DNA of 64,000 nucleotides from assembly GCF_025685645.1 (NCBI RefSeq), contig NZ_JAGSYF010000002.1:1054907-1118906 (forward strand), written 5' to 3'. The notes beneath the pieces are model-generated. The model ran no database searches, had not been told where the DNA came from, and saw nothing but the letters and a program-made list of their open reading frames with translations. Shown here piece after piece: positions 3,376-26,402 of this stretch. Within the stretch, counting starts at the first letter, position 1; each line of letters begins with the position of its first letter. A program made the position numbers and the translations under genes. This DNA is from Edaphobacter bradus. GTDB lineage: Bacteria > Acidobacteriota > Terriglobia > Terriglobales > Acidobacteriaceae.

Positions 3376-4119
3376 TCACACGGCCGCTAGGCCGCCATCG
3401 ACCGGCAAATCGATTCCAGTGATGTAGCTGCTCTCGTCCGAAGCCAGGAACACCGCTGCCGAAGCAATCTCCTCAGGCTTCCCGATGCGCCCCATCGGAA
3501 CCATCGTCTTGAACCGTTCCTTCATCGCTTCCGTGTTCTCGCCAAATTGACCTTTGAGAATAGGTGTCTCGACGGGGCCAGGGTTGATCACATTGGCGCG
3601 GATTCCTTTGCCTGCCAAGTCCGCCGTCCAGGTGCGCACAAACGACCGCAGAGCCGCCTTCGTAGCTGCGTAAGTCGGATAGATCGGAACACCTTTCTGC
3701 CAGAGCCCGGAGCCGGTCAGAATGATCGATCCGCCCTCTTTCATCAGGGGCAAGGCCTTTTGCACCGCAAAGAAAACTCCGCGCGCGTTGATGTCGAAAG
3801 TCTTGTCGTAGTCTTCCGGGCTCACGGCTGCTGTCGGTTTCGGCTCCGCGATGCCCGCATTCGCAAACAGCACATCGAGCTTGCCTTTCTTTGTAGCTAC
3901 TTCCTCGTACAGCCGGTCCAGGTCGTCGAGATTGGAAACGTCCCCCTGGACGGCAGTCACATTGCTGCCGATTTCGGCAACGGCCTTGTCCAGTTCCGCC
4001 TGTCGGCGGCCCGTAATGAAGACGTAGGCTCCTTCTTTCACGAAGCGCTTGGCGGTAGCAAGTCCGATACCGGTGCTGCCCCCGGTGATGACGGCAATTT
4101 TTCCTTGTAACGCGGGCAT
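3376..4119 (-). CDS. Short-chain dehydrogenase/reductase (classical SDR)
   Basis: The 247-residue length is typical for classical SDRs, cytoplasmic NAD(P)-dependent oxidoreductases. The cofactor motif TGGSTGIG is at residues 12-19, NAG at 87-89, catalytic Ser at 137 and the YxxxK pair at Tyr150/Lys154, so the active site is complete. The arginines in TGRR after beta-strand 2 (residues 36-39) suggest NADP preference. The closing DLPVDGGLAAV is the usual substrate-loop/C-terminal signature. It is divergently transcribed from a TetR regulator at 4244, a common arrangement in which the regulator controls the reductase. The substrate cannot be predicted. Confidence 0.93.
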   Translation of the reverse strand: MPALQGKIAVITGGSTGIGLATAKRFVKEGAYVFITGRRQAELDKAVAEIGSNVTAVQGDVSNLDDLDRLYEEVATKKGKLDVLFANAGIAEPKPTAAVSPEDYDKTFDINARGVFFAVQKALPLMKEGGSIILTGSGLWQKGVPIYPTYAATKAALRSFVRTWTADLAGKGIRANVINPGPVETPILKGQFGENTEAMKERFKTMVPMGRIGKPEEIASAAVFLASDESSYITGIDLPVDGGLAAV

Positions 4120-4144
4120 GATCTTGATCTCCTGTTTCTGATTC

Positions 4145-4166
4145 GAAGTGTCCGAACTTCTGGACT
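4145..4166. promoter_or_regulatory. Candidate TetR operator between SDR and TetR genes
   Basis: In the divergent SDR/TetR intergenic region, GAAGT-GTCCGA-ACTTC (4145-4160) is an inverted repeat, overlapped by GTCC...GGAC (4150-4165). A matching inverted half TCCAGAAGT occurs at 4221-4229, mirroring ACTTCTGGA at 4156-4164. Position and symmetry suit a shared operator; binding is inferred only. Confidence 0.45.
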
Positions 4167-4243
4167 CATCGTTTCAGATGTTCCCGAGGCGAGATGGTTT
4201 CATATTTTTCAACCTTTCGTTCCAGAAGTGCGTCCAATCCCGT

Positions 4244-4879
4244 ATGAACACTTCAACGGCAGTGGAAGTAAGGATGGGGCGGCCTCGCGAGTTTGATGAA
4301 GACGCCGCCCTTGAAGCTGCGATGCGGGTCTTCTGGGAGAAGAGCTACGAAGGCGCGACCATGGCCGACCTGACCGAAGCCATGGGAATCAACCGTTCCA
4401 GCATGTACGCCGCTTTTGGCGACAAGGAATCACTCTTTCGCAGGGTCATGGAGCGCTACCGGGAGGGACGGTTGGCTCATCGCAGGCAAGCTCTCGCTCA
4501 GCCGTCGCTGCGGGAAGTCGTAGCGGGGCTGATCCTGGGAACCGCGGAGTTCCTCTCGATCCCCGGCAATCCTCGCGGATGTCTTATGATCCAGGGGGCA
4601 CTGGCATGCAGCACAGATACGGAACCTGTAAAGCAGACGATGATCGAGTGGAGAAAAAGCGGTGAAGCCGCGTTGAAGGTGCGTCTGCAACAGGCGCAGT
4701 CTGAGGGCGAGCTCCCTCGAGAGATCCAGCCCGCAGACTTTGCCCGCTACCTCTCATCGGTAATGGCGGGCCTTGGCATTCAAGCTGCCAACGGGGCAAC
4801 AAGGGCAGAGTTGCGGCGTGTGGCTGAAATCGCCTTGCGCTGTATTGAAACCGATCTTCGGGGTTCTGCAGGTGGCTAG
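4244..4879 (+). CDS. TetR/AcrR-family transcriptional repressor
   Basis: The start at 4244 (MNTSTAVEVRMGRPREF) gives 211 residues; an ATG at 4148 in the same frame is rejected because it would lie inside the divergent promoter region. The N-terminus GRPREFDEDAALEAAMRVFW, followed by GATMADLTEAMGINRSSMYA and AFGDKESLF, is the TetR HTH with the 'GRPREFD' opening of the subfamily that regulates adjacent reductases. The C-terminal half contains the conserved GCLMIQGALA stretch of the TetR_C domain of this group. It likely represses itself and the divergent SDR gene in response to a small ligand. Confidence 0.92.
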   Translation: MNTSTAVEVRMGRPREFDEDAALEAAMRVFWEKSYEGATMADLTEAMGINRSSMYAAFGDKESLFRRVMERYREGRLAHRRQALAQPSLREVVAGLILGTAEFLSIPGNPRGCLMIQGALACSTDTEPVKQTMIEWRKSGEAALKVRLQQAQSEGELPREIQPADFARYLSSVMAGLGIQAANGATRAELRRVAEIALRCIETDLRGSAGG

Positions 4880-5258
4880 GTTTGCAGCTCTTCGCTTCTC
4901 TTACGAGTGATGTGTTCCGAGAGTGAAAAAAATCGGCTCTCATTTGTAGCCAAATCGCCGAGGCACTCATGGACACCGGATTTGTACCGAGATGTCGGCT
5001 AATGGGAAGTTACGGTCACTCCCGAGTAACCGGCAAACCGGACGTTGAGTGTCAACTGGCGATAGCAGGCCATAGCGTGAAGTGAGCACTCCAGAGGAAC
5101 GTGATCCAAGTGGATGTGTAACGGGCTTCTCGGACACTTGAATGCAAACTGACCCACTAACCAGTCTGGTGCGCCGAGTTGCGCTGCGAATTGACCCGTG
5201 ATAGCTTCCTCTCGGCCTGAAGGAGGCGTTTTTCCTTCACGCAAGAGGAAAATAGAAC
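4880..5258. other. Intergenic region with an inverted copy of the dispersed repeat
   Basis: No gene is visible. Bases 4990-5048 hold a copy (N) of the dispersed repeat, inverted relative to 2596-2618. Its stretch AATGGGAAGT...GTAACCGGCAAACCGGA aligns with the reverse complement of 34441-34503. CAAACTGACCCACTAAC at 5142-5158 mirrors 2536-2552. The last 20 bases contain the ribosome binding site (AAGAGGAAA) for the next gene. Confidence 0.55.
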
Positions 5259-5591
5259 ATGAGGAAGCTCATTCGAATTGCATCGCCGCTGCTTGCCGTG
5301 GCTCTCGTGAGCAGCTCGCCGGTTTTGGCAATCGCTCAGACCAACCAGGCTGCTCAAAACGTCCAGGACTGGAACACCCCGCCTGCCGGCACCGAACAGG
5401 CGCAGCAGGGCTACCGCGACGGTATCGAGGCGGCTAAGCTGGACCGGGCAGCAAAGCGCAAGATCGACGCCAAGTCGTCGCACCTGTACCTGCATCCTCC
5501 CGTCAAGGGCGCAGCTCGCGAGGCCTATCGCGACAGCTTCGTGAACGGATACGAGGCTGCAGTTAAGCACAGCGATAACCCTGGCATGTGA
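5259..5591 (+). CDS. Small secreted protein with duplicated YRD motif
   Basis: The 110-residue product has a clear signal peptide (MRKLIRIASPLLAVALVSSS, cleavage likely after VLAIAQ). The mature part of about 85 residues contains two related segments, QGYRDGIEAAKLD and REAYRDSFVNGYEAA, suggesting an internal duplication of a YRDxxxxGYxAA unit. I do not know a function; small periplasmic proteins with this motif seem common in acidobacteria. The ATG is preceded by AAGAGGAAAATAGAAC. A terminator follows at 5641-5668, so it is probably monocistronic. Confidence 0.75.
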   Translation: MRKLIRIASPLLAVALVSSSPVLAIAQTNQAAQNVQDWNTPPAGTEQAQQGYRDGIEAAKLDRAAKRKIDAKSSHLYLHPPVKGAAREAYRDSFVNGYEAAVKHSDNPGM

Positions 5592-5640
5592 GCTTTGCAG
5601 CAACATCAGGAGATGCTGATACAACTGAAAGTGAAGAAAG

Positions 5641-5668
5641 AGGTCCCATCCATGGGGCCTTTTTCTTT
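5641..5668 (+). terminator. Rho-independent terminator after the small secreted protein
   Basis: AGGTCCC (5641-5647) pairs with GGGGCCT (5654-5660) and is followed directly by TTTTCTTT. Confidence 0.8.
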
Positions 5669-5739
5669 GCCACAGGCAGCACGCCGGAGCCGGAAGAGTC
5701 GCCTGATGGGCAGCAGGTTTGTGGAGGGCGAGCTTGGCG

Positions 5740-8085
5740 ATGGTGATGGCGAGACGGACGGGGCGGGGCCTGATGGCCGTGGTGATGGGGATTGCTCTCA
5801 CGGCAGGCGCGGCTGGCGCGCAGCAACCGCAGGATGTTCCGGTATCGCCAACAGCACCGGCAGGGCAGCCTGCGACGGCGATGGCGCAGTCCGGCCGCAC
5901 GGCCGAGGCTCCGGTAGAGGGGCTGGTCCGCAAGGACATGTACACGGTGGCGCTGACGCTGCCCGGTAGTCAGAAGGCCGCGGGAGCCGCTGCCCCAGAG
6001 CTCCTGCTGAGCGACTTTGAGTTCGAGGGCGAGCGTGTGCGGGCGAGCCAGCTTCACTTCAGGCAGCTCTCGCCTGGCGTCGTCGAAGTTACGAGCATCG
6101 CGTACACGGTGGGCTACTGGCGGTTTCGCGTGCGCGATGCGGCGAACTACTACGGCCTGGGCGAGCACTTCGACGCGCTCAACCACAGCCATACGATTGT
6201 GCGGAACAGCTCAACCGACAACGGGCATGCGAAGGGCTCGTCGACCTACAAGCCGATGCCGTTCTACATGAGCACGACGGGCTACGGGCTCTGGGTCGAT
6301 ACGACGTCTGACGCGACCTTTGACATGAACGCCTCGAGCGAGCATGAGGTGATAGTCGATGTCGCGACCGACAAGCTGCGCATCGTGCTGTTCACCGGGC
6401 CTGAGTTCCCGAAGATCCTCGACCATTTCACCGAGTTGGCCGGGCGATCGATCCTGCCGCCGTACTGGGCGTTTGCGCCGTGGACCGGCCGCGACTATCA
6501 CCAGAACGACGCCCAAGTGAAACAGGACGTCGACAAAAACCGCGAGCTGGGTCTCCCGGCGAGTATCATCCTTATCGATTCACCGTGGACAACGGCCTAT
6601 AACAGTTACAAATTCAACCCGGCGCAATTTGCAGACGCACCCACAATGGTGAAGTATGTGCACGACAACGGTTACAAATTAGTGCTGTGGCATACCTCGT
6701 GGATCAATGTGAAGTCGGACTCGCCGGGAGAGGCTGGCTTTGCGGGCAAGATGGCCGAAAAATCGGAGAACTACGACGAGGCAGCGGGCAACGGCTACTT
6801 CGTGAAGACCGCCGACGGGACGCCCTACGTTGGTCGCTGGTGGAAGGGGCTGGGCTCGCTGATCGACTTCACGAACCCTTCGGCGAAGCTGTGGTGGCAG
6901 GACCAGGTTCGCCAGGCGATCAAAGCAGGAGCGGACGGCTTCAAGGACGACGACGCCGAGGGAAGCTTTGTGGCGGCGCCGGTGAAGTTCGCCGACGGCA
7001 CCGATCCGCGCGTGATGCGCAACCGCTACGCCGTGCTCTACAACAACGCGATGGAGGAGCTGATCCAGAAGGACCTGAAGGGCAACGGCGTTCTGTTCGC
7101 TCGCAGCGTGACGCAGGGAGCGAACGGCCTCGGGCTGCTCTGGGGAGGAGACAACGAGTCGAGCTTCAGCCCGGAGAACGGTCTGCCCACCGTCGTGACG
7201 GCTGGACTGGGCGCGGGGCTGAGCGGCATGCCGCTCTGGACCTCCGATCTGGGCGGCTACCTGAAGACCTCCTCAGCTCCCGATGCGACGCTGTTTCAGC
7301 GCTGGACGGAGTACGCAGCCTTCTCGCCGGCGATGGAGGTGTTGTCGCAGACGAACCTCGGGCCGTGGGATTACGGGGATCAGGCTCTTGCTACGTATCG
7401 CAAGTTCGCCGTCCTGCACATGAGCCTTTTTCCGTACCGCTACGCCGCGGCGCAGGAGGCGGCGAAGACGGGCATGCCGATCATGCGGGCGCTCGTGCTG
7501 AACTACCAGAACGACGAGCGCGCACGGCAGGCGAAGGACGAGTATCTCTTTGGGCCCGATCTGCTGGTGGCTCCTGTGGTGAACGAGGGCACGCAGCGAG
7601 TCGTCTATCTCCCTGCAGGCGAGTGGGTCGACTACTGGACAGGCGCGCATCTCACCGGCGCAAAGACGGTCGTGGCAGAGGTTCCGATAGACGCGATCCC
7701 CGTCTACGCCCGCGCTGGAGCAGTGATTCCGAAGATTCCCGAGGACGTGATGACGCTGGTCCCGCAGAGCGAGAGCGGGAATACACAGGTGAAGGCGATG
7801 GACGACCGCCGCGTCTACGAGCTAATAGGCGGGGAACTGATCAGCGGCGGCGACGCAACCGGCAACGCAACGATTAAGGACTTCGAGGGAAGGACCGTGG
7901 TGCGCCACGACAACTCGCTGACCATCGCGGGAGACTCGGTGGCCCACATGATCGTGCGCTGGCGGTTCGGCAAGCCGGGGAGCGTGACGGTGAACGGCGC
8001 GGCCGTCCTGGTGCAGACCGGCGATGGTGGCGAGCCGTTCGTCGAGTTCGACCACGTGGACAAGAGCGAGGTCGCCTGGCAGTAA
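5740..8085 (+). CDS. Exported glycoside hydrolase family 31 (alpha-glucosidase/alpha-xylosidase type)
   Basis: The product (781 residues from the ATG at 5740; a TTG at 5719 would add seven) hydrolyses or transfers alpha-glycosides by the retaining GH31 mechanism. A signal peptide (MVMARRTGRGLMAVVMGIAL) points to the periplasm. An N-terminal beta-sandwich precedes the TIM barrel. The nucleophile region ADGFKDDDAEGSF puts the candidate nucleophile Asp at about residue 403, and LLWGGDNESSF carries the acid/base Asp at about 471. The C-terminal sandwich is present (YLPAGEWVDYWTG). GGAGG at 5723-5727 supports translation near 5740. The DGFKDDDAEG nucleophile loop departs from the KTDFGE loop of YicI-type xylosidases, so the substrate is open. 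No other carbohydrate genes are adjacent. Confidence 0.93.
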   Translation: MVMARRTGRGLMAVVMGIALTAGAAGAQQPQDVPVSPTAPAGQPATAMAQSGRTAEAPVEGLVRKDMYTVALTLPGSQKAAGAAAPELLLSDFEFEGERVRASQLHFRQLSPGVVEVTSIAYTVGYWRFRVRDAANYYGLGEHFDALNHSHTIVRNSSTDNGHAKGSSTYKPMPFYMSTTGYGLWVDTTSDATFDMNASSEHEVIVDVATDKLRIVLFTGPEFPKILDHFTELAGRSILPPYWAFAPWTGRDYHQNDAQVKQDVDKNRELGLPASIILIDSPWTTAYNSYKFNPAQFADAPTMVKYVHDNGYKLVLWHTSWINVKSDSPGEAGFAGKMAEKSENYDEAAGNGYFVKTADGTPYVGRWWKGLGSLIDFTNPSAKLWWQDQVRQAIKAGADGFKDDDAEGSFVAAPVKFADGTDPRVMRNRYAVLYNNAMEELIQKDLKGNGVLFARSVTQGANGLGLLWGGDNESSFSPENGLPTVVTAGLGAGLSGMPLWTSDLGGYLKTSSAPDATLFQRWTEYAAFSPAMEVLSQTNLGPWDYGDQALATYRKFAVLHMSLFPYRYAAAQEAAKTGMPIMRALVLNYQNDERARQAKDEYLFGPDLLVAPVVNEGTQRVVYLPAGEWVDYWTGAHLTGAKTVVAEVPIDAIPVYARAGAVIPKIPEDVMTLVPQSESGNTQVKAMDDRRVYELIGGELISGGDATGNATIKDFEGRTVVRHDNSLTIAGDSVAHMIVRWRFGKPGSVTVNGAAVLVQTGDGGEPFVEFDHVDKSEVAWQ

Positions 8086-20811: not shown

Positions 20812-22065
20812 TCACTTCGCTGTGTTTGCGGTAGGATGCTTTCTGCTCAGACAGTCTTGCCTTATCCTCAACTTCGTCTCTTGTGAAACCGGTTGTCTGG
20901 GAGCAGGAGTCAACACAGGGTGTGCCGCACTCGCAACGATCTGAACATCGAGCTCTTCTAATGTCGAAGGGACAGGCAGGCCAGCAACTTTCATTCGGCG
21001 CAGCCATTCGGATCTATAGGCCCGATCAAGAGCGATATCCGCTGGAAGGGGTTCGGCCAGTAGTAATTTCTGAGGACCTAAATAGAGAAAAGCATCTATC
21101 TGATCTGCAACGGTCTTGGATGGCTTGCTCGAGAATGCATCGATGGCGTTGCAGTTCTGGTCAGTTGTAATCGGCGATGGAAGGAATGAGTCAAGGCCTA
21201 ACGTGCCTAGGCTGCTGTTCTTTGTTCTCAAAAGCGACGGCCACACCCCACCCGGAGCGTTCATTTCTCCAAGCGGTTCGTTGCCGGTGCCGTAGTATCC
21301 AAAATCGCTGATCACGAAGGTCCTGCCGGGGTAGTGACGCTCGTACCTCGTGACCGCATCCCCTTCTCCCGGGCCGCCTCCATGCACCAGATGAAAGACT
21401 CCGAAGAGCATCAGGGCTTTGCGATGCTTAGAAAGCACCTCTCTTTCCATCACAGAAGCAATGCTTCCTTCTCGCACAGAAGCGAGGTTTTCATCCCGGC
21501 CGAAAAACGACGTGAGGTCTTCGTGTGTATAAATCTTGCCCCAATCGATCGGCGGATCTGCGGCAACAACTCTCAGGCGGCTTCTGGCAGGAAGCCGTTG
21601 ATTAAGCGAGCGAACCAGCGGAAACAGCTGCTCGTAGAAGCCGGATGCTCCACACATTTGTTGGACCGTCGTGTCTCGCCAGACATGCTGGACTTCGGTA
21701 AACGGAACATCCTCGCCGGCGATGTACCGATCAAGAACCGGCTGGTACCGCACATTGCCACATTCAACAACTATGTCGTTCACCGATGCCGGAAAGCGTG
21801 GGTCACGAATGAGGGACAGGATGAAGTCGTCGATATCTTTCTGTCCATGAGCCGCTGGCATCCCTACAACTTCGAAGGTCTCAAAAGTTTTCAAGATCGC
21901 CGGGATCGCAGGTTCAGGGATCGCGTCCTGAGTGTCGCTGACAGGATGGCTGGCTGAGACCTGAGCCCTGCAAGGTTGTGAAGGCAGTGAAATCGATGCA
22001 AGTGAGAGAAGGACGGTTCCGCAGCGCGCACTTCTCAACATGCGAGGAAAGAACTGCTCATTCAT
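20812..22065 (-). CDS. Secreted protein of unknown function, weakly EreA/ChaN-like
   Basis: The 417-residue product starts at MNEQFFPRML (22065, GGAGG eight bases upstream); the frame continues upstream only because a transposase fragment is joined in frame. A signal peptide (GTVLLSLASISLPSQP, cleavage near CRAQVS) is present. The core has DIVVECGNVRYQPVLDRYIA and KALMLFGVFHLVHG, which recall the EreA/ChaN/TraB fold with conserved Glu and His, but the match is weak and I would not assign a reaction. The C-terminal stretch QNCNAIDAF with two later Cys is unremarkable. It is convergent with the MFS gene before it. Confidence 0.7.
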   Translation of the reverse strand: MNEQFFPRMLRSARCGTVLLSLASISLPSQPCRAQVSASHPVSDTQDAIPEPAIPAILKTFETFEVVGMPAAHGQKDIDDFILSLIRDPRFPASVNDIVVECGNVRYQPVLDRYIAGEDVPFTEVQHVWRDTTVQQMCGASGFYEQLFPLVRSLNQRLPARSRLRVVAADPPIDWGKIYTHEDLTSFFGRDENLASVREGSIASVMEREVLSKHRKALMLFGVFHLVHGGGPGEGDAVTRYERHYPGRTFVISDFGYYGTGNEPLGEMNAPGGVWPSLLRTKNSSLGTLGLDSFLPSPITTDQNCNAIDAFSSKPSKTVADQIDAFLYLGPQKLLLAEPLPADIALDRAYRSEWLRRMKVAGLPVPSTLEELDVQIVASAAHPVLTPAPRQPVSQETKLRIRQDCLSRKHPTANTAK

Positions 22066-22099
22066 AGCTACTACCTCCGTTGTGCAACTGCCGTGATGC

Positions 22100-22312
22100 G
22101 GAGCCCCAAGCTGCCATTCCAGCGAAAGACGCGAGAGACCGAGGATACCAGTCCCAGAGAACGGCACGCCGTTGTCGGTTCGGATGCGTTCGGGAACCCC
22201 GTACTCACGCATGGCAGCCTCACAGATCGCGCGGACGTGCGCGGTATCCATGCGAGTAATGACTTGGCAACGGATGAGGTATCGGCTATGGGCGTCCGTG
22301 ATCGTGAACCCA
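22100..22312 (-). mobile_element. IS481-type transposase fragment (integrase core)
   Basis: In the minus strand, FTITDAHSRYLIRCQVITRM then AICEAAMREYGVPERIRTDN and GVPFSGTGILGLSRLSLEW is the rve/DDE integrase core of IS481/IS3-like transposases, with the second catalytic Asp in RTDNG. Only about 70 codons remain. The first Asp is in TDAHS; the final Glu region is lost. The fragment begins two bases from the MFS stop codon at 22315 and ends before the secreted-protein start, so an IS insertion decayed precisely between these genes. Confidence 0.85.
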
Positions 22313-23775: not shown

Positions 23776-23851
23776 CAGGCCTTCAGAGGAGGCCTAGAAT
23801 CCTGTCAAGCCCCAAAGCCAACCAACCCAAACAAAACAAGCCACATCGCCG
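23776..23851 (-). repeat. Direct repeat R1 upstream of the hip-like module
   Basis: These 76 bp align closely with 25651-25727, sharing blocks such as TAGAATCCTGTCAAG and CCAACCCAAACAAAACAAGC. A third copy is inverted at 49219-49283. The pair encloses the three hip-like genes. Confidence 0.85.
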
Positions 23852-23940
23852 GGTACAAACATACTTGATGCACCAAAGCGCACCGACTGATATGCTCCTC
23901 GCACTAGCTAACCCAAAGGTTCGAGAGAGATTACACGGAC

Positions 23941-24996
23941 GTGTCATTGCAAGTGAACGGCCTGACGCAGCTTGGCCCCATGACCAAAAAAGAGATGATG
24001 TCCCCCTATCGCCAGGGACTTCCTACTCGCTTTGTTCGGGTTGGGCGGAGGGGTGCAACCTGGGGCTTACCACGAAGATTTCAGGGCTATCAGGCAAGTG
24101 GCGAGCATGTGATGAGCATGGCGGGGGCAGCTACCAAATGCTTTCTGTCAAAGGACGGAAGTCCTGAAGGAGCTTATATAGCCAAATTTGCCCATAAAAA
24201 TGGGCATATAGAAACCTATACGGAACTCTTCAATAATCAACTAGGAATGTTGTTAGGGTTCGGCATGGCCCATAGCGGTATAGCCAAACTGGACGAGAGT
24301 CTTCACTTCGTAAGTCGTTCGTTTAGAACAGATCCAGCCGATCAATTGTTGCACGGAAGCCTCTTAGTACAGGAAATTGGACTTGCAGATCAGTTTGAGC
24401 TTGAGCGGATTAACACCGCTTCCCGGCAACAGGGCATCTACGACATCGATTTTGTCCGAGACATGATCTATCAAGTGTGCGATAAATATGCCGATACCGT
24501 GTTTGCATCGCTAGTGGAAATGCTCGTGTTCGACGCTCTTACAGGTGCAATGGACCGTCATCCTCGAAATTGGGGGGTTCTACGGACCGCTACGCTACCT
24601 GCCGAATATAAATTTGCTCCACTTTACGACTCAGCGAGAGCCCTTTTATGGGACAAGACTGATGATAGTCTAGAAATACTGGAGTCCAACGAGGGGGACT
24701 TTCAGCGGTACGTCCTAAAGTCGCATCCGCGCATTGGGCTACCAAAATCGGTAGGACAAAAAGGCAAATGCACGCATGTAGACCTGATACGCTACCTCCT
24801 CTCGCAGCATAAAGAGGTGACATTGCGTGCCTACACAAAGATACGTGTCGATATAGAACGCACGGCAGGCCACCTGTTACGTCAACACCCGTTTCGACGT
24901 GTGTTCACAAAGCGCCGGGCTCGCCTGATTGTGCGGTTATTGCTGGTTCGCCAACAAGCTTTAGAGCATCTCATAAAGGAGGGAAACAATGCTTAA
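23941..24996 (+). CDS. HipA-like Ser/Thr kinase (HipT-type)
   Basis: The 351-residue protein has the HipA kinase core but lacks the HipA N-terminal subdomain, as in HipT. Motifs: a glycine-rich loop with candidate autophosphorylation serine, SMAGAATK (Ser59), Lys82 in AYIAKFAH, Glu95 in YTELFNNQLG, the catalytic loop GAMDRHPRNWG (Asp205, Asn210) and the metal-binding Asp230 in LYDSARAL. All catalytic residues are present. HipA/HipT kinases phosphorylate aminoacyl-tRNA synthetases and arrest growth; the target here is unknown. The start is a GTG; in-frame ATGs follow at codons 14, 19 and 20. Codon use is AT-richer than its neighbours, suggesting transfer. The next gene overlaps it by eight bases. 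Confidence 0.8.
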   Translation: MSLQVNGLTQLGPMTKKEMMSPYRQGLPTRFVRVGRRGATWGLPRRFQGYQASGEHVMSMAGAATKCFLSKDGSPEGAYIAKFAHKNGHIETYTELFNNQLGMLLGFGMAHSGIAKLDESLHFVSRSFRTDPADQLLHGSLLVQEIGLADQFELERINTASRQQGIYDIDFVRDMIYQVCDKYADTVFASLVEMLVFDALTGAMDRHPRNWGVLRTATLPAEYKFAPLYDSARALLWDKTDDSLEILESNEGDFQRYVLKSHPRIGLPKSVGQKGKCTHVDLIRYLLSQHKEVTLRAYTKIRVDIERTAGHLLRQHPFRRVFTKRRARLIVRLLLVRQQALEHLIKEGNNA

Positions 24997-25360
24997 TCCG
25001 TGGGCATCAAGGTCCAAAATGTCGTACAAAACGCCGCCACCCACGCTCCTCGTTTCCTACGATGGCAGGGTCGTCGCAGAGTTGAAGAAGGTTGATCGGA
25101 AGTATTCGTTTCGTTACTTGGATGCGTTTCAAGAGATGAATCTTTCTCCGCTTCCTGGGCTGCCGCAGAAGAGCGGCGAGTCATTACACGACGAGCTTCC
25201 GTTGTTTTTCAAGGAGAGGTTACCAGACCTTCGTCGGCCTGAGATCAGCAGTTGGTTGCAGGCTCATCCATCTGTTGATCGGAACGATGACCTACAGCTG
25301 CTCGGAGCACTGGGAGCGCATTCCATAACTGATTCGTTCGTTATCTCACCCGCTGCATAA
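24989..25360 (+). CDS. HipA N-terminal-subdomain protein (HipS-like)
   Basis: The 123-residue protein resembles the N-subdomain 1 of HipA, encoded separately: LLVSYDGRVVAELKKVDRKY followed by SFRYLDAF, ELPLFFKERLPDLRRPEISS and LLGALGAHSITDSFVI. In E. coli HipBST the equivalent HipS neutralises the HipT kinase. The gene overlaps the kinase gene by eight bases, so translation is likely coupled. The order kinase then HipS is the reverse of hipBST, in which HipS precedes HipT. A role as antitoxin is inferred from family and context. Confidence 0.7.
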   Translation: MLNPWASRSKMSYKTPPPTLLVSYDGRVVAELKKVDRKYSFRYLDAFQEMNLSPLPGLPQKSGESLHDELPLFFKERLPDLRRPEISSWLQAHPSVDRNDDLQLLGALGAHSITDSFVISPAA

Positions 25361-25361
25361 A

Positions 25362-25556
25362 ATGAAAACTCCTCCTGATACCCCCGAGTTTGCGCGCTTC
25401 ACTGCAGCGGTGCGGGATATTCTCAAGGTGTCAAAGAGCGAGATGCAGGCGCGCATTGGTGCGCACAAAGAGAGTGGGAAGAGGCTGTCTAAAGGCTCCT
25501 CTTCCCTCGGTTCTGCCGCATCATCCAAAATCCGTTCTTCGATAGGCGAACGTTAG
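25362..25556 (+). CDS. 64-residue protein, third gene of the hip-like module
   Basis: It starts one base after the HipS-like stop codon, so it is almost certainly cotranscribed. The N-terminal half TPEFARFTAAVRDILKVSKS EMQARIG is predicted helical; the C-terminal half is a basic, serine-rich, disordered-looking tail (RLSKGSSSLGSAASSKIRSS). There is no HTH, so it is not an obvious HipB. Small proteins of this kind seem frequent in acidobacteria, and their function is unknown to me. It could be a second regulator, a substrate of the kinase (its tail is rich in serines) or an accessory protein. Confidence 0.6.
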   Translation: MKTPPDTPEFARFTAAVRDILKVSKSEMQARIGAHKESGKRLSKGSSSLGSAASSKIRSSIGER

Positions 25557-25650
25557 AAAACTTCCGTTTCCGACACCTTGCCGGTCAACTCTGCATAAGT
25601 CAGTCTCTTCCCCGAAATCTGCGATACCGCCAGCATGAATCTATCCGCAT

Positions 25651-25943
25651 CAGGCCTTCAGCGGAGGTCATAGAATCCTGTCAAGTCCCCAAACCAGCCA
25701 ACCCAAACAAAACAAGCCACATCGCCGTGGCAGAGTAGTTTCCCCTGATCCGCTAAAATAGAACCAGTGAGAAAAAGGAAAGTGCCCCGGCCAACACCGG
25801 GGCTCTCCTCTCTTACCTAAATAACCCATTTACTTTTAATACTTTGCCGGTAAGTCGTTTAGATAGAATATTTTGCAGTCGAAGTCCAAGCCTAAAGCCA
25901 ATAGAATGAAGATTTTGACGGAAAACTGGAGGGGTGGGGGTAC
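25651..25943 (-). repeat. Composite intergenic repeat C1, directly after tsaE
   Basis: Read on the minus strand from the tsaE stop: a GGGGGTACC block, TGCAAAATATTC (25866-25877), CAAAGTATT (25838-25846), a terminator hairpin (25784-25803), AACTACTCTGCCAC (25727-25740) and CTTGACAGG (25677-25685). The same ordered blocks occur at 32577-33070 and 49012-49283. Its distal part (25651-25727) is direct repeat R2 of the hip-like module. Confidence 0.8.
25784..25803 (-). terminator. Rho-independent terminator inside composite repeat C1
   Basis: GCCCCGG...CCGGGGC hairpin; on the minus strand it is followed by ACTTTCCTTTTT. It would end the nnrD-tsaE transcript. Confidence 0.8.
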
Positions 25944-26402
25944 CTACCGCCACCGGACCATCAGCAGCCGCTCATTGCCCTCGCCGTGCTCCATGGCGAT
26001 CTCGGCGTCGGCGCGGCTGACGATGCTCTCGAAGCGCTCGCCCCACTCGACCAGAACCAGCGCGTCGGGTTGGGACTCCATCTCCTCAATGCCGAGCGTA
26101 GCGAGTTCCTTCTCGGTCTCCAGCCGGTAGAGATCGAGGTGATAGACCCGCACCTTCGGCCCGGCATACTCGTGGACGAGCGTGAAGGTCGGGCTGGTCA
26201 CGTCCTCCTCCTGGGCCGCGCCGAGCGCCGCAGCGATGCCCTTCACCAGCGTCGTCTTGCCTGCGCCCACATCGCCGCGCAGCACGACCAGCTTCGGCGG
26301 AGGCGACAGAATCTCGGCGATCGTCTGGCCCAGCGCCAGCGTCCCTGAAACCGACCGCGTGCGAAACCGCTTTTCGCGAGTAAAGCTCGGCGTGACGCTC
26401 AT
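25944..26402 (-). CDS. tsaE: tRNA threonylcarbamoyladenosine biosynthesis ATPase TsaE
   Basis: The 152-residue protein starts at 26402 in an ATGA overlap with the nnrD stop; the upstream in-frame extension is the 15-bp repeat of nnrD read in another frame. TsaE is the P-loop ATPase that works with TsaB and TsaD to make t6A37 in tRNAs. Walker A is GDVGAGKTT (residues 43-51), followed by TSPTFTLVHEY, HLDLYRLE and LVLVEWGER, all conserved in TsaE. Length is normal. It is the last gene of the nnrD-tsaE operon. Confidence 0.97.
   Translation of the reverse strand: MSVTPSFTREKRFRTRSVSGTLALGQTIAEILSPPPKLVVLRGDVGAGKTTLVKGIAAALGAAQEEDVTSPTFTLVHEYAGPKVRVYHLDLYRLETEKELATLGIEEMESQPDALVLVEWGERFESIVSRADAEIAMEHGEGNERLLMVRWR

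Follow-up and report, generated by a model that had tools for sequence, protein, structure and literature searches.

In a 64-kb stretch of the Edaphobacter bradus genome (hereafter the window), a HipA-type kinase gene, a gene for a HipS-like protein and a third small open reading frame (ORF3) stand between two direct repeats, and a first-pass annotation had proposed them as a new three-gene toxin system. Our analysis leads to a different account. The first two genes form a hipJS module, and this module is the cargo of a decayed IS1595-family transposon of the type that carries passenger genes. This reading is carried by the association of ORF3 with transposases, a transposase remnant that overlaps it, a transposon end at position 23852 that is unique in the window, and the anatomy of the repeats. 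We assign it a probability of about 0.87, with the history of the element and the toxin-antitoxin mechanism included. The anatomy, the homologies, the conserved partner order and the transposon signatures were observed directly at the loci described below.

All three genes are read in the same direction (ORF listing of the window; Table 1). The kinase and HipS-like genes overlap by 8 bases, and a single base separates the latter from ORF3, as the first-pass annotation had stated. The kinase comprises 351 amino acids if translated from a GTG at 23941 and 338 from an alternative ATG at 23980. Its start is uncertain; on comparison with the homologue at locus L027, the ATG is our preferred guess, and residues are numbered from it unless stated. 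Pfam assigned the protein to HipA_C (E 3.6e-15) and PADLOC to PDC-M03A (E 1.8e-32). The protein is a short HipA-type kinase with a Gly-rich loop and catalytic and Mg motifs, and N-subdomain-1 is absent. Both the SMAGAATK and the DRHPRN motif reported earlier are present, and residues G49, K53, D192, R193, H194, N197 and D217 are unchanged in all 40 aligned kinases. Ser59, which had been put forward as an autophosphorylation site, corresponds to S46 in our numbering. As a Ser or Thr stands at this place beside the Gly-rich loop in only 20 of the 40 aligned homologues, the alignment makes control by autophosphorylation possible in the HipJ studied here, but it would not be general among these kinases.

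For the 123-residue partner, Pfam returned Couple_hipA (E 2.9e-10) and no HIRAN match, and PADLOC matched it to positions 20-116 of the 245 in the PDC-M03B profile, in the N-terminal half (E 1.2e-14). The AF2 model of this protein (mean pLDDT 79.9) found its best PDB folds in HipS of L. pneumophila (8ezr_A, E 4.0e-5; 7vkb_B) and of E. coli (7ab3_B), with HipA next; the comparison had been set beforehand as the structural check on the protein, and the outcome that would have spoken against the identification did not occur. A profile built from eight HipS proteins retrieved the same HipS chains by sequence, among other HipA-family chains. No helix-turn-helix (HTH) family was detected on any of the three ORFs in Pfam and further family searches. 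The earlier identification of a split HipA kinase with a HipS-like partner and without HipB is supported. The sequence AAAGGAGG stands upstream of the hipS ATG, and nothing like it was found ahead of those candidate kinase starts that were inspected. A strong AAAGGAGG before hipS, with none before the inspected kinase starts, would favour an excess of the antitoxin.

The arrangement corresponds to a published one. Gerdes, Baerentsen and Brodersen described hipJS in 2021 as a gene pair lacking an HTH gene, in which a short HipJ kinase precedes a HipS that stands alone; HipJ was placed as a subclade of clade XI and HipS was termed a putative antitoxin (PMC8262856). It was the only relevant paper found in the open-licence literature, where no account of experiments on hipJS came to light. 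The pair in the window shares with hipJS the short kinase without N-subdomain-1, the stand-alone HipS in second position and the lack of an HTH gene, and by gene order, families and folds it is a bicistronic hipJS module. Unlike the described modules, this copy lies within the remains of a transposon and is followed by an additional transposon gene.

The partner order was then compared across 83 kinase loci, a sample of the closest relatives composed of the best 80 of at least 348 relatives in the genome collection and 3 of 18 loci in the viral collection; four of them (L085, L158, L159 and L163) may coincide with sequences from which the profiles were built. HipS lies immediately downstream of the kinase in 81 of the 83 and was undetected beside it at L151 and L155. 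Judged by record titles, most of the loci belong to Bacteroidota and other environmental bacteria. Because of the published hipJS order, its recurrence in this survey and the HipS fold, what had been described as a reversed HipBST without HipB is not a new system. Of the kinase, HipS and third gene order for which a search across genomes had been proposed, the first two members recurred and the third did not, since ORF3 occurs at none of the 83 loci.

The same phylum supplied nine relatives of the kinase, of which seven are accompanied by a short HipS and two (L022 in genome G315, L023 in G219) by a HIRAN-bearing partner; ORF3 is found at none of the nine when ORFs of at least 60 amino acids are considered. 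The two exceptions are hipIN-like modules whose downstream partners of 241 and 302 amino acids match Pfam HIRAN. Couple_hipA was not reported by Pfam in either partner, and no similarity of the L022 partner to HipS was detected in the searches run, a single-sequence search included. With hipIN and PDC-M03, in which the kinase is paired with a HipS-HIRAN protein, the window pair shares the kinase family by profile and the gene order, whereas the HIRAN half is absent. With hipBST of E. coli O127 and L. pneumophila it shares the HipS fold and the kinase core fold (PMC10627512); however, the B-S-T order is reversed here, HipB is absent, and HipS lacks the Trp65-type wedge, which is kept in some HipS proteins and not in all.

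The nearest solved relative of the kinase is CtkA (JHP0940) of Helicobacter pylori. CtkA ranked first in the PDB both by sequence profile (E 2.9e-16) and by fold (E 1.2e-11 for a predicted model with a pLDDT of 88.2, with HipA and HipT following), at 17% identity in the fold alignment. This ranking would suit a CtkA-like signalling or secreted kinase, with HipS as its regulator rather than as an antidote to a toxin. Such a role is improbable in our judgement, given that HipS accompanies the kinase at nearly all surveyed loci, mostly in Bacteroidota and other environmental bacteria. Moreover, in strain J99 the gene number adjacent to that of ctkA (jhp0940) is jhp0941, which is a mosaic xerT recombinase rather than hipS, and a HipS neighbour goes unmentioned in the part of that paper available to us (PMC2731543). 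As a separate observation, profile and fold both place HipJ-type kinases nearer to H. pylori CtkA (PDB 3akj/3akk/3akl) than to either HipA or HipT, and for this reason CtkA may descend from a HipJ-type kinase group.

The third gene leads to the carrier of the module. ORF3 has no match in Pfam, NCBIfam, PADLOC or PHROG, and its tail is rich in Ser and Lys. At its end the stop codon overlaps by 4 bases, tail-to-tail, with that of a transposase remnant (the window is locus L183 in our numbering). Neither this remnant nor the transposon end at 23852 had been noticed in the first-pass annotation. A full-length relative of the transposase in the longer L204 stretch carries the Pfam domains DDE_Tnp_IS1595 and Zn_ribbon_IS1595, and ORF3 relatives within the same genus adjoin a transposase tail-to-tail as well. 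For a wider comparison 30 ORF3 loci were scanned, of which 28 remained after removal of the window itself and a duplicate (L184, equal to L060). An IS1595-family transposase lies within 0.75 kb of ORF3 in 26 of these: the identical 4-base tail-to-tail stop overlap is present in 17, the transposase is convergent and up to 726 bases away or disrupted in 8 further loci, and it is co-directional at L191. No transposase was in reach at L199 and L203. Kinase or HipS genes were found in none of the 28 loci within flanks of approximately 1.5 kb. From the transposase side, the 18 closer of 30 returned loci were examined, 5 of which were already in the ORF3 set; a convergent ORF with the 4-base overlap is present in 14 of them and is ORF3-like (E < 0.05) in 12.

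These surveys bear directly on the proposal of a tripartite toxin-antitoxin system, in which the kinase, HipS and the 64-residue protein would act jointly, with the last as a kinase substrate or a second antitoxin. The co-directional position one base behind hipS and the Ser- and Lys-rich tail speak for it, as does the constraint on the protein, with dN/dS values of about 0.09-0.24 in four of six pairwise comparisons (the other two were incalculable). With synonymous divergence high, these values indicate that ORF3 is kept as a protein. However, ORF3 keeps company with the transposase and never with the hip genes in the surveyed loci, and we regard a joint role as largely refuted and highly improbable. 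The idea that ORF3 is a degraded HIRAN or a third hip gene was ruled out on the lack of a family match and its absence from all 83 hip loci. Judged by its neighbourhoods, ORF3 is a transposon gene and not a hip component, and its fixed position suggests that it may have a role related to transposition.

The ends and the surroundings of the module agree with this assignment. The only site in the window that matches any of 30 ends from 15 relatives in at least 17 of 22 positions is that at 23852, directly behind the left repeat. The two repeats described earlier as 76-bp flanks are real, with 71 identical positions in 78 alignment columns, yet they are not specific to a cassette: a 79-base query over the left copy (23777-23855) gave 33 matches in the whole genome, both window copies included, and the right copy runs on into a repeat of approximately 270 bases that is present elsewhere in the genome. 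What appeared as flanks is thus duplicated sequence of the insertion point, and the view that the repeats bound a cassette or serve by themselves as recombination sites was ruled out, as 31 of the 33 matches lack the first 21 bases. The approximately 22 bases ahead of the repeat are common to the two window copies only, which argues that both derive from one place. Since the transposon end interrupts the left copy, the right copy is whole and both have the same origin, the element would have entered the repeat and lost its right end later.

The proposed history is as follows. The original transposon would have had the order cargo-side inverted repeat, cargo (hipJ and hipS), ORF3 and convergent transposase, and it would have inserted into one copy of the dispersed intergenic repeat. 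In a later rearrangement the far end and the larger part of the transposase would have been lost, and a second, uninterrupted copy of the target would have been joined to the remnant, perhaps through exchange with an unoccupied copy. With these parts gone, the element would no longer be self-mobile. A full-length transposase had no match in this genome at E <= 1e-30, and three transposase fragments were found, the window's own included.

Table 1. Features of the hipJS module and its transposon remnant in the window (positions are those of the 64-kb stretch).
Feature	Position	Strand	Basis or remark
Left 76-bp direct repeat, made up of 22 local bases and the first ~54 bases of the dispersed ~270-bp repeat	23776-23851	+	
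Presumed 8-bp target site CATCGCCG	23844-23851	+	Inferred, right transposon end lost; recurs in the uninterrupted copy at 25720-25727
Cargo-side terminal inverted repeat, IS1595 family, GGTACAAACATACTTGATGCAC	23852-23873	+	19/22 identical to an L204 end
hipJ, HipA-type Ser/Thr kinase without N-subdomain-1	23941-24996	+	Pfam HipA_C; PADLOC PDC-M03A; fold matches CtkA, HipA, HipT
hipS, putative antitoxin of 123 aa, a stand-alone protein like the HipA N-subdomain	24989-25360	+	Pfam Couple_hipA; AF2 model against 8ezr_A, 7vkb_B, 7ab3_B
ORF3, 64-aa accessory gene of an IS1595-family transposon	25362-25556	+	Neighbourhoods of ORF3, kinase and transposase relatives
IS1595-family transposase remnant, last ~30 codons and stop	25553-25651	-	29/30 residues shared with the L053 transposase
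Right, uninterrupted copy of the 76-bp repeat	25652-25727	+	
Whole copy of the dispersed ~270-bp intergenic repeat	25674-25944	+	Repeat entered by the transposon

Horizontal gain, as suspected from the first inspection, is supported by composition, by distribution and by the transposon signatures. The GC content is 50.8% between 23852 and 25651 against 59.9% for the whole window, and equally low values occur in 0.3% of 1.8-kb windows. The kinase had no match at E <= 0.001 in any of 60 genomes of relatives. The gene tsaE is present in 57 of 60 genomes of the genus, its own included. An empty site was not found in relatives, as alignable sequence stops at tsaE towards the module in 19 loci with a flank of approximately 1.5 kb, and no MFS gene was found beside tsaE in the same 19 loci. 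Regarding the dispersed repeat itself, it often has TTTCCACAGA before it, and Rfam families gave only sub-threshold matches between 23600 and 26100, the ~270-bp repeat included. Elsewhere near the module, the start region (~22100-22251; REYGVPERIRTDNGVPF) of an ORF at 20812-22251 on the minus strand resembles part of an integrase-core transposase that has been joined to unrelated sequence, and it is possibly another mobile-element remnant.

Intact sister elements were sought in 20 stretches around ORF3 relatives. Complete elements of approximately 2.0-3.7 kb, whose matching ends resemble GGCATAAATATACTTGACACAC and which show a perfect 8-bp duplication, were found in 15 of them, including one in which transposase and ORF3 are broken (L207); the other five gave no end pair with a perfect 8-bp duplication. 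The IS1595 family is characterised by ends starting with GG and 8-bp target duplications (PMC8101967), and it includes transporter insertion sequences with passenger genes (Siguier 2009, as cited in PMC11891212). The sister elements match these transporters in transposase type, GG-starting ends, duplication length and passenger genes, and they differ by the conserved tail-to-tail ORF3 and the varying toxin- or Abi-type cargo. In the open-licence literature searched, these two features were not found described, nor were toxin-antitoxin genes as the cargo of IS1595 elements. Tn3-family transposons likewise hold toxin-antitoxin genes inside a DDE transposon (PMC7157771); however, they belong to another family, and in the elements here the cargo changes while ORF3 stays. 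The homology between the window and L053, L054 and L055 begins at the ORF3 start codon, which indicates that cargo was exchanged at this point.

The cargo was searched with Pfam (all 21 listed proteins) and PADLOC (20 of them), the smaller cargo ORFs lying outside the search. RelA_SpoT-domain proteins were found in L204, L207 and L208 (PADLOC PDC-S33, E 1e-92, 1.3e-97 and 7.3e-115), an AAA ATPase with a DUF3226 partner in L206 (AbiLi, E 2.7e-43), DUF3800 proteins in L204, L212, L216 and L221 (a second L212 copy fell below the cut-off) and a DUF6941 protein in L205. The main cargo of L211, L213, L214, L215, L222 and L223 matched neither database. Two complete elements may be singled out. That in L220 (4121-5848, plus strand) carries as its main cargo an AIPR protein that is AbiU-like (PADLOC AbiU, E 6.5e-155). 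The element in L208 (3706-7205 in locus coordinates) carries at 3770-5956 the RelA/SpoT-domain gene, a small gene and a SocA_Panacea gene, which are possibly a toxin-antitoxin set. In total, PADLOC matched 6 of 20 cargo proteins and 1 of 10 outside genes (taken from 29 listed outside ORFs), numbers too small to make an enrichment of defence genes in the cargo more than a lead.

The cargo also bears on a reading in which the pair is a phage-defence module akin to the PADLOC candidate PDC-M03, with the toxin released on infection and the transposon as one route between hosts. The profile matches of both proteins to PDC-M03, the PHROG families that match kinase and HipS alike, the presence of the pair in all three viral-collection contigs examined (of 18 found) and the Abi-type genes on some sister elements point in this direction. 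However, PDC-M03 is itself a candidate, PDC standing for phage defence candidate (PMC11514479), the HIRAN half of hipIN is absent from the window, and the PADLOC counts in cargo and outside genes are too few to establish enrichment. We consider a defence role a tentative but serious possibility. It overlaps with the explanation preferred here and does not exclude it.

Returning to the hipJS module as transposon cargo, its toxicity, neutralisation and target would follow the HipA and HipBST models. HipJ would be a growth-arresting Ser/Thr kinase that is inactive as long as HipS docks in place of the N-subdomain of HipA. Upon loss of HipS, the freed kinase would phosphorylate its target, by analogy an aminoacyl-tRNA synthetase. 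The role of the module would lie in addiction or phage defence. In HipBST, HipS takes the place of the HipA N-subdomain and keeps the kinase inactive, with E. coli HipS blocking HipT via Trp65 (PMC10627512).

Several points weigh against this account. The HipS position aligned to Trp65 is Arg82 here and is occupied by a residue other than Trp in all eight aligned HipS proteins, so that the blocking mechanism of E. coli is not directly transferable and the contact must differ. With the right end gone, a target duplication in the window cannot be shown. Deletion alone fails to explain the second repeat copy, and an additional duplication or exchange must be assumed. No transposase was found at any of the 83 kinase loci, nor was a further hipJS module seen on such a transposon. 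At six other hip loci a terminal-repeat motif was not found beside the pair, but this strict motif likewise missed one end in some positive-control elements. The toxin-antitoxin function is assigned by analogy, and CtkA, to which the kinase is closer in sequence and fold than it is to HipT or HipA, has to our knowledge not been described as an antitoxin-controlled toxin.

With regards to the first-pass annotation, the observation was sound and the core identification correct, while the claimed novelty was not. What is new is the transposon as carrier, its state of decay and an ORF3 that stays conserved while the cargo varies. A claimed three-gene toxin system thereby gives way to a testable account, in which a split-HipA pair of the described hipJS family was moved by an IS1595 passenger-gene transposon and ORF3 is singled out as a conserved small part of that transposon. 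More speculatively, and with considerable doubt on our side, this IS1595-type family in Acidobacteriota might be a vehicle with a fixed backbone of transposase and tail-to-tail ORF3 and with exchangeable cargo joined at the ORF3 start. Such cargo would preferentially consist of toxin-antitoxin and abortive-infection genes (hipJS, RelA/SpoT-domain PDC-S33, SocA/Panacea, AbiU-like and AbiL-like), and ORF3 would be a dedicated factor for the control of transposition or the tolerance of toxic cargo. The sister elements, some with cargo resembling abortive-infection or toxin-antitoxin genes, offer a concrete vehicle by which such genes may be scattered among soil bacteria.

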